Virus record (IMG/VR): IMGVR_UViG_3300047509_000010
Coordinates: 1-47,948 of that record
DNA length: 47,948 bases
Source of the DNA: a virus
Strand: one strand, 5' to 3'
The position numbers and the translations under genes are program-made. The notes beneath the pieces are model-generated. The model was given only the letters and a program-made list of their open reading frames with translations. It was not told where the DNA came from and ran no database searches. The number at the start of each line of letters is the position of its first letter. The first letter of the stretch is position 1. This document shows, one piece after another, positions 40,002 to 41,717 of this stretch.

Positions 40002-40075
40002 GCCCCTGAAGCATTGTGGTGATGCAGCGGTCCTGTAAATCGCAGAGCGGCGTTCAAATCGTCGCAGGGGCACCA
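40002..40075 (+). tRNA. tRNA-Thr(TGT) with C33
   Basis: Acceptor GCCCCTG/CAGGGGC, encoded CCA, D-arm GCAT/ATGC, T-loop TTCAAAT. The stem GCGGT/ATCGC fixes the loop as CCTGTAA, so the anticodon is TGT preceded by C instead of U at position 33. Position 8 is A. Confidence 0.8.
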
Positions 40076-40100
40076 AGTTGTCGAGAGCTTTTAGGGTTAC

Positions 40101-40217
40101 GGGGAAAGTAGCTTATGAGGTAAAGCGGCTGCGAATATTCCAGTAGGGCTAAAGCCAGACGTGGCGAACCGAAAAGTAAACCGCAGCATGTAAGGTGGTT
40201 CGAGTCCATCCGCCCCT
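40101..40217 (+). other. tRNA-like element with 50-nt anticodon-loop insertion
   Basis: A good D-arm (TA-GCTT-ATGAGGTA-AAGC, 40109-40126) and T-arm (GGTGG-TTCGAGT-CCATC, 40194-40210) flank a stem GCTGC (40128-40132)/GCAGC (40183-40187). Fifty bases lie where a 7-nt anticodon loop belongs. The acceptor pairs only at GGGG/CCCC and no CCA follows. Could be an intron-bearing tRNA, a decayed tRNA, or part of a larger RNA. Confidence 0.45.
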
Positions 40218-40220
40218 TGC

Positions 40221-40286
40221 CTAAAAGGTAGCCGCGCAAGCGGAGCAACTAACACGAGGCGTCAGCACACGCCTACTCGACAAACC
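40221..40286 (+). other. Structured spacer between tRNAs
   Basis: Contains a GCAA-capped hairpin (CCGC-GCAA-GCGG) and a second stem GGCGT/ACGCC with a 6-nt loop. No tRNA fold or reading frame found. Possibly a decayed tRNA or a processing element. Confidence 0.35.
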
Positions 40287-40361
40287 GCTGTCTTAGCTCA
40301 TTTGGCAGAGCACCGCTTTGGTATAGCGGCGAGGGTGGATCGAAGCCACCAGACAGCACCA
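40287..40361 (+). tRNA. tRNA-Thr(GGT)
   Basis: Acceptor GCTGTCT/AGACAGC, D-arm GCTC/GAGC, anticodon stem CCGCT/AGCGG with loop TTGGTAT (GGT), T-arm GGTGG/CCACC, discriminator A, encoded CCA. Confidence 0.88.
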
Positions 40362-40366
40362 TTTAT

Positions 40367-40451
40367 GTGCGCGTGGCCTAAAGGGGAATTGGCAGACCCA
40401 ACGGATTTAGGTTCCGTGGCCTTAAAGGTTCGAGTCCTTTCGCGCATACCA
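40367..40451 (+). tRNA. tRNA-Leu(TAG)
   Basis: Acceptor GTGCGCG/CGCGCAT, anticodon stem ACGGA/TCCGT with loop TTTAGGT (TAG), T-arm AAAGG-TTCGAGT-CCTTT, encoded CCA. The D-region is long and leucine-like (GGAATTGGCAGAC), but the variable region is short. Confidence 0.85.
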
Positions 40452-40455
40452 TTAA

Positions 40456-40540
40456 GCCCTAATGGCGGAATCGGCAGACGCGCTGGCTTCAAATACCAGT
40501 GTTGCAAGACGTGCAGGATCGTGGCCTGCTTAGGGCACCA
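40456..40540 (+). tRNA. tRNA-Leu(CAA)
   Basis: Acceptor GCCCTAA/TTAGGGC, leucine-type D-arm (TGGCGGAATCGGCAGACG), anticodon loop TTCAAAT (CAA), long variable arm, T-stem GCAGG/CCTGC with loop ATCGTGG, discriminator A, encoded CCA. Confidence 0.85.
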
Positions 40541-40541
40541 T

Positions 40542-40626
40542 GTCGGCGTGGCGAAACTGTAAAACGCTGCGAGCTTAAACCTCGCTGGAGAAATCCTTGC
40601 CGGTTAGAGTCCGGCCGCCGATACCA
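40542..40626 (+). tRNA. tRNA-Leu(TAA)
   Basis: Acceptor GTCGGCG/CGCCGAT, anticodon stem GCGAG/CTCGC with loop CTTAAAC (TAA), long variable arm, T-arm GCCGG-TTAGAGT-CCGGC, encoded CCA. Starts two bases after the preceding tRNA. Confidence 0.87.
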
Positions 40627-40631
40627 AATAC

Positions 40632-40708
40632 GGGCGGTTAGTTCAGTTCGGTAGAACAGCGGTGTTACATACCGCGTGTCGCGGGTTCAAATCCTGCACC
40701 GCCTACCA
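40632..40708 (+). tRNA. tRNA-Val(TAC)
   Basis: Acceptor GGGCGGT/ACCGCCT, D-arm GTTC/GAAC, anticodon stem GCGGT/ACCGC with loop GTTACAT (TAC), T-arm GCGGG-TTCAAAT-CCTGC, encoded CCA. All consensus positions intact. Confidence 0.92.
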
Positions 40709-40711
40709 TTT

Positions 40712-40786
40712 AGTCCCGTCGTCTAGTGGCTAAGGCACCCGGCCGATAACCGGGAAAACAGGGATCGAAACCCTGCGGGACTACCA
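40712..40786 (+). tRNA. tRNA-Ile(GAT) with C33
   Basis: Acceptor AGTCCCG/CGGGACT, D-arm GTCT/AGGC, perfect anticodon stem CCCGG/CCGGG with loop CCGATAA, so anticodon GAT with C33 instead of U33. T-arm CAGGG-ATCGAAA-CCCTG, encoded CCA. Confidence 0.85.
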
Positions 40787-40791
40787 ATTAC

Positions 40792-40873
40792 GGATGCCAA
40801 GAGTATAGCCGGGTGGTCTGGCACGGATCTTTTAAACCCGCCTCTCGTGGATCGTAACCACTGGCATCCTCCA
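40792..40873 (+). tRNA. tRNA-Lys(TTT), with extra bases before the D-arm
   Basis: Acceptor GGATGCC/GGCATCC, discriminator T, encoded CCA. Loop CTTTTAA is the classic lysine loop. A normal D-arm (TA-GCC...GGC) is preceded by seven extra bases (AAGAGTA) after the acceptor, and the anticodon and T stems each hold a mismatch. Possibly decayed. Confidence 0.65.
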
Positions 40874-40874
40874 C

Positions 40875-40949
40875 GAACCACAAGCATAAAGGTAATGCGC
40901 TGGCCTCTTAAGCCATGAGAACACGGATCATTACCGTGGTGGTTCACCA
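40875..40949 (+). tRNA. tRNA-Lys(CTT)
   Basis: Acceptor GAACCAC/GTGGTTC, D-arm GCAT/ATGC, loop CTCTTAA (CTT), T-stem CACGG/CCGTG with loop ATCATTA, encoded CCA. Position 8 is A. Confidence 0.8.
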
Positions 40950-40954
40950 ATAAA

Positions 40955-41029
40955 GGCCGTGTAGATCAACGGTGGATCATTCCCCTGTCACGGGAAAGGA
41001 CGCGGGGTCAGCACCCGCCACGGTCGCCA
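40955..41029 (+). tRNA. tRNA-Asp(GTC)
   Basis: Acceptor GGCCGTG/CACGGTC, discriminator G, D-arm GATC/GATC, anticodon stem TTCCC/GGGAA with loop CTGTCAC (GTC), T-stem GCGGG/CCCGC with loop GTCAGCA, encoded CCA. Confidence 0.9.
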
Positions 41030-41033
41030 CTAT

Positions 41034-41111
41034 CAGCGTGTAGCTCAGTCAGGCCAGAGTCCTCCGTTCGGAACGGAGTTGTCGGAGGTTCAAATCCTCC
41101 CACGCTGACCA
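41034..41111 (+). tRNA. tRNA-Pro(CGG)
   Basis: Acceptor CAGCGTG/CACGCTG, D-arm GCTC/GAGT, anticodon stem CTCCG/CGGAG with loop TTCGGAA (CGG), T-arm GGAGG-TTCAAAT-CCTCC, encoded CCA. Confidence 0.92.
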
Positions 41112-41115
41112 ATAC

Positions 41116-41207
41116 GGGCGCGGGTGTAGGTACACAGGGAGGTTTTATAAACCTTTCAGCCCCAGATGAGGGTTCTCGACCTTGTTCAATTCAAGGCGCG
41201 CCTACCA
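41116..41207 (+). tRNA. tRNA with anticodon TAT (Ile?), long variable region
   Basis: Acceptor GGGCGCG/CGCGCCT, T-arm CCTTG-TTCAATT-CAAGG, encoded CCA. The stem GAGGT/ACCTT sets loop TTTATAA, anticodon TAT. The D-arm is GTGT/ACAC with a 4-nt loop, and about 24 bases lie between anticodon and T stems, which is unusual for isoleucine. Confidence 0.65.
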
Positions 41208-41222
41208 ATAAAGGGAGGGAAC

Positions 41223-41558
41223 ATGCGTGCGATAGTCGAGCGGATAGAGCAGCCCAGCGCGCCTCTATTCAGGCTGTATATCCATGATGCGCCGCATAGA
41301 CGGATGCATATCAAGACAATACAGAAATACCGGGAAATGCTGCGGGCTGCGTTCCTCAAGATCGGGGTATTTACGCCGATTGACCATCCGATAGAGTTGT
41401 CCGTGGTATTCGTTAATCCGTCCAGCCCTGACTTGGGCAACCTCTATTTGGCGCTTGAGCAGGCGATGGATGGCAAGACGCTAAAGAAACCGGGTGTTTT
41501 AACGGATGACAGTCTGATACAGGTCGTCCGACATTTGAGTAAGATGTACGTCACGTAG
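41223..41558 (+). CDS. RusA-family Holliday junction resolvase, in the tRNA array
   Basis: The start is ATG 41223 after AAAGGGAGGG. The 111-residue protein has the RusA core SSPDLGNLYLALEQAMDGK, then LTDDSLIQVV, holding the conserved acidic residues. RusA cuts branched DNA before packaging. Its last codons and TAG stop are inside the tRNA-Arg gene: the stop TAG is that tRNA's U8-A9-G10. A second RusA lies at 46905-47306. Confidence 0.8.
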   Translation: MRAIVERIEQPSAPLFRLYIHDAPHRRMHIKTIQKYREMLRAAFLKIGVFTPIDHPIELSVVFVNPSSPDLGNLYLALEQAMDGKTLKKPGVLTDDSLIQVVRHLSKMYVT

Positions 41559-41624
41559 CTCAATGGATAGAGCGCCACCCTCCGAAGGTGGGAGATCGGC
41601 GTTCGACTCGCCGCGTGATGGCCA
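41549..41624 (+). tRNA. tRNA-Arg(CCG), overlapping rusA stop
   Basis: Acceptor CGTCACG/CGTGATG, D-arm GCTC/GAGC, anticodon stem CCACC/GGTGG with loop CTCCGAA (CCG), T-arm CGGCG-TTCGACT-CGCCG, discriminator G, encoded CCA. The first 10 bases also encode the end of RusA. Confidence 0.92.
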
Positions 41625-41628
41625 ATAC

Positions 41629-41717
41629 GGAAGGGTTCGCTGTGTGGACGGCAATCGGTCCTGAAAACCGAGACGAATACGGAAACGTAGGGGGTTCAAC
41701 TCCCCCTGCCCGCTCCA
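41629..41717 (+). tRNA. tRNA-Ser(TGA) with C33, poor acceptor
   Basis: Long variable arm, perfect T-arm GGGGG-TTCAACT-CCCCC and stem TCGGT/ACCGA with loop CCTGAAA, so anticodon TGA with C33. The CCA is encoded, but the 5' GGAAGGG does not pair with 3' TGCCCGC, so the acceptor may need editing or the gene is decaying. Confidence 0.65.

Follow-up and report, generated by a model that had tools for sequence, protein, structure and literature searches.

Cytidine at position 33 (C33) of the anticodon loop, the site at which tRNA biology treats the U-turn-forming uridine (U33) as near-invariant, appears to be a recurrent and tolerated variant of phage tRNAs that mainly occurs in phage and phage-like arrays, with decoding retained; from sequence comparisons we give this reading a probability of about 0.6. 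The window, i.e., the whole stretch of DNA analysed here, is a 47,948-base virus record with SU10-like terminase and portal genes and a GC content of 54.7%, and three of the tRNAs in its array carry C33. Dozens of natural phage tRNAs share this base, including some of cultured phages of Escherichia, Klebsiella, Vibrio and Acinetobacter, which opens a direct route to asking what U33 does and how well a C33 tRNA decodes, as well as a way to ask whether phages dropped U33 to escape tRNA-cutting defences.

A search of the open-access literature found no description of C33 in phage tRNAs. Related cases exist. According to the available part of one article, the eukaryotic initiator tRNA-Met is a functional tRNA with C33 replacing U33 (PMC9023262), but this concerns the initiator only, whereas phage C33 covers many isoacceptors. 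Phage-encoded tRNAs with anticodon loops unlike cellular ones were described by van den Berg et al. (2023; PMC10264068), who proposed tRNase evasion and who, in the available part of their text, name no change at position 33. Likewise, the tRNA array units of phages and mobile elements are dense clusters of many isoacceptors, similar to the array of the window, but base 33 is not reported on in the available parts of those studies (PMC5966550, PMC6409571).

The tRNA array of the window

The array spans approximately positions 39,920-42,462 and holds about 20 tRNAs (Table 1), of which 14 were called by ARAGORN, five were added by a cloverleaf scan (Thr(CGT), Leu(TAG), Lys(TTT), Lys(CTT) and Ser(TGA)) and one, Met(CAT), was read by eye. 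According to the cloverleaf scan and reading by eye, the 17 tRNAs other than Thr(TGT), Ile(GAT) and Ser(TGA) have T33; for Leu(TAG), the scan placed the anticodon arm in a different register. C33 in the remaining three, as reported by the first-pass annotation, was confirmed: each has a seven-base loop on five of five anticodon-stem pairs (GCGGT-CCTGTAA-ATCGC in Thr(TGT), CCCGG-CCGATAA-CCGGG in Ile(GAT) and TCGGT-CCTGAAA-ACCGA in Ser(TGA)), and none of the alternative folds checked puts a U at position 33.

Table 1. tRNAs of the array, with window coordinates, base 33 and basis of the call
Feature	Position	Strand	Base 33	Basis and remarks
tRNA-Thr(CGT)	39923..39996	+	U	cloverleaf scan, no ARAGORN call; one C-C mismatch in anticodon stem
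tRNA-Thr(TGT)	40002..40075	+	C	ARAGORN, cloverleaf scan, 45.8 bits; loop CCTGTAA
tRNA-Thr(GGT)	40287..40361	+	U	ARAGORN and family score
tRNA-Leu(TAG)	40365..40451	+	U	base 33 by eye; 26.5 bits, just under cut-off
tRNA-Leu(CAA)	40456..40540	+	U	ARAGORN and family score
tRNA-Leu(TAA)	40542..40626	+	U	ARAGORN and family score
tRNA-Val(TAC)	40632..40708	+	U	ARAGORN and family score
tRNA-Ile(GAT)	40712..40786	+	C	ARAGORN, cloverleaf scan, 51.4 bits; loop CCGATAA
tRNA-Lys(TTT)-like	40792..40873	+	U	cloverleaf scan and eye; additional bases separating acceptor and D stems
tRNA-Lys(CTT)	40875..40949	+	U	cloverleaf scan, 46.6 bits
tRNA-Asp(GTC)	40955..41029	+	U	ARAGORN and family score
tRNA-Pro(CGG)	41034..41111	+	U	ARAGORN and family score
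tRNA-Ile(TAT)-like	41116..41207	+	U	ARAGORN and cloverleaf scan; long Leu/Ser/Tyr-like variable arm
tRNA-Arg(CCG)	41549..41624	+	U	ARAGORN and family score
tRNA-Ser(TGA)-like	41629..41717	+	C	12.4 bits; loop CCTGAAA; damaged acceptor stem, doubtful gene
tRNA-Glu(TTC)	41722..41797	+	U	ARAGORN and cloverleaf scan
tRNA-Gln(TTG)	42157..42232	+	U	ARAGORN and family score
tRNA-Met(CAT)-like	42239..42307	+	U	read by eye; without encoded CCA
tRNA-His(GTG)	42309..42382	+	U	ARAGORN and family score
tRNA-Trp(CCA)	42388..42462	+	U	ARAGORN and family score

The three C33 tRNAs depart from the canonical tRNA at U33, and two of them have the features of functional genes. Thr(TGT) and Ile(GAT) have complete acceptor, anticodon and T stems, encode CCA and score above the family cut-off, within the score range of the array; with every stem paired, they lack the marks of pseudogenes. 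Among the invariant bases, Thr(TGT) has A8 for U8 and Ile(GAT) has A54 for T54, and at minimum energy Thr(TGT) does not fold into a cloverleaf. Ser(TGA) is likely a decaying gene. It was not called by ARAGORN and does not reach the RF00005 cut-off of 29 bits; in the standard register four of its seven acceptor pairs are broken, so that it lacks the features of a functional gene, and its minimum-energy fold forms an irregular acceptor of 3+4 bp with an internal loop, in which the CC of the encoded CCA is consumed in pairing. This damage, together with stem mismatches in several other tRNAs, would fit an array that is losing its function, C33 being one damage among many. We regard such decay as improbable, since Thr(TGT) and Ile(GAT) score like the rest of the array and since, in viruses at large, base 33 changes to C and rarely to A or G, in tRNAs that are otherwise intact (see below).

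In the 23 ORFs considered, ACA, TCA and ATC, the codons that correspond to the C33 tRNAs, are used at 12.5, 8.8 and 17.0 per thousand, respectively, and none is the commonest of its set. Separately, 8 of the 19 array tRNAs scanned have a base other than T at position 54, as against approximately 2-4% of viral tRNAs generally, an excess that is a stronger oddity of this array than C33.

C33 among viral and bacterial tRNAs

A scan of IMG/VR for C33 loops of eight anticodons returned at least 120 stretches; of the 121 matches listed, 80 were C33 tRNAs according to ARAGORN, 34 lacked an ARAGORN call and the remaining 7 were out of register. A neutral sample was drawn from loci found with a base-33-independent pattern and from the other tRNAs in loci found with C/T-blind Ile and Thr patterns; the seeding isoacceptor, repeats and any tRNA lacking five anticodon-stem pairs were excluded. 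Base 33 of these 1,868 viral tRNAs (279 loci) was T in 1,814, C in 47 (2.5%), A in 6 and G in 1. When T, C, A and G were placed at position 33 of 500 tRNAs, ARAGORN refound 499, 477, 473 and 472, respectively; because refinding was nearly equal for each base, the preference for C does not stem from ARAGORN. C33 was somewhat clustered, with at least two cases in nine loci (5.4 expected; p = 0.048) and at least three in three loci (p = 0.019), and among the fetched viral loci its rates were highest in Glu(CTC) (5/25) and Val(GAC) (3/12). Mycobacteriophage ET08 (Bixzunavirus Bxz1), presumably of C1 type, has C33 in Val(CAC) and Val(GAC), two of its 26 ARAGORN tRNAs. As a further observation, three loci on MAG contigs titled Solibacteraceae, Bryobacterales and Acidobacteria hold 17-22 tRNAs each, four or five of them with C33.

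C33 depends strongly on base composition. Across seven bins of rising GC, its share was 1.0, 0.8, 0.8, 2.3, 4.7, 5.4 and 9.0% (rank test p = 5e-10), i.e., approximately 1% below 45% GC and 9% above 60% GC in the viral sample. U33 is near-invariant in bacteria, but the rarity of C33 on which the first-pass annotation relied does not extend to phages: C33 makes up 2.5% of viral tRNAs overall and 5-9% of those that are GC-rich, and at these rates the improbability of three cases in one array was overstated. At the rate of viral loci of 50-60% GC (16/279, or 5.7%), at least three C33 among 20 tRNAs have a probability of 0.10 and, with Ser(TGA) left out, at least two among 19 have a probability of 0.30; among the 36 arrays with at least 14 tRNAs, five have at least two C33 and three have at least three. 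The C33 count of the window is not extraordinary among phages, and C33 in its Thr and Ile tRNAs is ordinary for its GC class.

C33 tRNAs are no less intact than the rest. In the 1,735 of the 1,868 tRNAs that could be parsed (44 C33 and 1,691 others), the mean numbers of acceptor pairs (6.91 vs. 6.93) and T-stem pairs (4.91 vs. 4.96) were similar, and broken invariants averaged 0.45 in C33 tRNAs and 0.36 in the others (p = 0.29 in loci above 50% GC). The intact stems and the retention of a pyrimidine at position 33 argue for C33 tRNAs being still under selection. Relaxed selection, one of the causes first offered, therefore stands in part: the GC dependence speaks for it, but plain decay does not fit 47 C against 7 A or G at position 33 in tRNAs otherwise intact.

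Another proposed cause, post-transcriptional C-to-U editing that restores U33, is very improbable and found no support. The only pointer to it is the C at position 33 itself, and loci with C33 are not enriched in C at T8, T54 or T55, or in C-A mismatches. C-to-U editing of this sort is not known from bacterial or phage tRNAs. Loss of t6A, considered for the Thr and Ile tRNAs, was set aside on evidence from human mitochondrial tRNA-Thr, in which U33C had no significant effect on t6A in the available part of the study (PMC7102964).

The preferred reading, a tolerated variant, can be stated as a mechanism. A C at position 33 would come at low cost to a phage tRNA, whose service is limited to one infection; because the tRNA is needed for one infection only, selection against C33 would be weak, and GC mutation pressure would then set its frequency. 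With position 33 weakly held, GC pressure accounts for the general C33 pattern. Mutation pressure by itself may nevertheless be insufficient for the gradient, which is approximately tenfold at position 33 and larger than the mild shift to C at the freer loop sites 59 and 60, while T8, T54 and T55 show no comparable rise of C with GC. The gradient could also be mimicked by a host factor associated with GC.

In bacteria, 109 stretches of a collection of 84,980 species fitted the C33 Ile(GAT) pattern, and ARAGORN confirmed 31 of them. By hand count, 12 of these 31 lie in loci with at least 10 tRNAs and 10 adjoin another C33 tRNA; the dense tRNA loci and neighbouring C33 tRNAs are suggestive of mobile arrays. 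A C/T-blind Ile(GAT) pattern run on 299 genomes of one phylum found 87 T33 and 1 C33 (hand count), the single C33 being that of the centre genome, which had been picked for carrying it. In viral contigs, 118 Ile(GAT) loci found with a slightly narrower pattern comprised 110 T33 and 8 C33. In Ile(GAU) of bacterial chromosomes, C33 is nearly absent, and viruses carry it far more often.

Ile(GAU) of cultured phages and anticodon nucleases

The cultured-phage C33 Ile(GAU) tRNAs are the part of the wider pattern that foremost merits bench work. C33 Ile was traced to Acinetobacter phages Acibel004, 133, phiAbaA1 and relatives and to Sphingobium phage Lacusarx, and the type is widespread, recurring in cultured members of Straboviridae, Demerecviridae, Schitoviridae and Saclayvirus. 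Among phages with fetched loci at 30-40% GC, Ile(GAT) has C33 in 12 of 12, a set reached through C33 loci or C33 queries, although 39 of 76 columns vary in these tRNAs, including every one of the ten anticodon-stem columns as well as position 32. A wider similarity search with a C33 Ile query matched 870 records, of which ten were fetched; seven are C33 Ile (Liucustia, Riv-10, EcS1, KpGranit, Frozen, Vettismorki and River4) and three are T33 Ile (F2M1E, SP-076 and ET08). In 193 viral Ile(GAT) tRNAs, a set enriched in C33 by the searches, the Ile body with the D arm AGCTCAG-NN-GGTAGAGC is represented by 24 C33 and 4 T33 members. Below 45% GC, C33 occurs in 4 of 62 Ile(GAT) as compared with 9 of 1,204 other viral tRNAs (p = 0.003). 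Since GC pressure leaves the retention of C33 in AT-rich phages unexplained, selection probably keeps C33 in this Ile(GAU) body type, AT-rich phages included; in the proposed mechanism, Ile(GAU) would thus be the case in which C33 is actively kept.

A poorly resolved Ile tree built with base 33 masked required 33 changes, as compared with 50 for shuffled labels, and its supported branches force 7. On this tree, C33 in Ile appears clustered, yet often gained or lost. The D arm of the window Ile tRNA differs from that of the AGCTCAG-NN body, and C33 there is therefore probably a separate event.

The best candidate cause of a selected C33 in Ile is evasion of anticodon nucleases of the PrrC/RloC type, which is plausible. 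As a general account of C33, it would hold that the change alters the base beside the PrrC/RloC cut (33/34), or a recognised base, such that phage tRNAs survive the cutting of host tRNAs; we consider this possible but rather unlikely. According to the available part of one source, PrrC cuts 3' of U33, as does RloC, which also removes base 34 and acts on several tRNA species with an apparent preference for tRNA-Glu (PMC2610378), and Glu(CTC) is among the most C33-rich viral isoacceptors. The loop of the window Ile tRNA departs from the bacterial Ile(GAU) form at the base that adjoins this cut, and C33 is retained in Ile(GAU) among cultured phages. A precedent is found in phage tRNAs whose anticodon-loop changes are predicted to confer VapC resistance (PMC10264068, available part). 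However, no nuclease that requires U33 in Ile, Thr or Ser is known in this setting, C33 is spread over many isoacceptors and tracks GC, and a study of phage Sf14 that saw altered loops deemed nuclease evasion unlikely, according to its available part (PMC12482277). The window ORFs searched included no RNA nuclease or RNA repair gene. A stronger version, slightly less likely again, would have a common but unrecognised host nuclease that needs U33 select C33 in Ile(GAU), with scattered C33 tRNAs, those of the window included, answering the same class of enzyme. The role against tRNA-cutting defences suggested by the first-pass annotation is possible and compatible with the conserved C33 of Ile(GAU).

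Surroundings of the array and relatives of the phage

Two ORFs lie within the array, one encoding an HNH endonuclease (41785-42120, minus strand) and the other unassigned (41166-41558, plus strand); the HNH ORF may be a mobile element that travels through the array. Between 40080 and 40280, a T-arm-like hairpin (GGTGG TTCGAGT CCATC) and spaced matching GCTGCG/CGCAGC segments were seen by eye, and this stretch could be a broken or interrupted tRNA. Even with Rfam thresholds set permissively, no tRNA match in the approximately 950 bases preceding the array (38960-39920) was convincing.

Searches with the terminase and portal found relatives of the window phage in 23 loci, and only 1 of the 13 records examined from these loci had tRNA matches. 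DNA similarity to the window was confined to short matches, the best 20 of 219 lying mostly beneath tRNA-Pro; Gordonia phage JuJu gave a 94-base match. Additionally, the window encodes a GcrA-like regulator (47303-47722; Pfam, E 1.6e-16) and a DNA methyltransferase (44578-45363; PHROG, E 2e-55), which together point to an alphaproteobacterial host.
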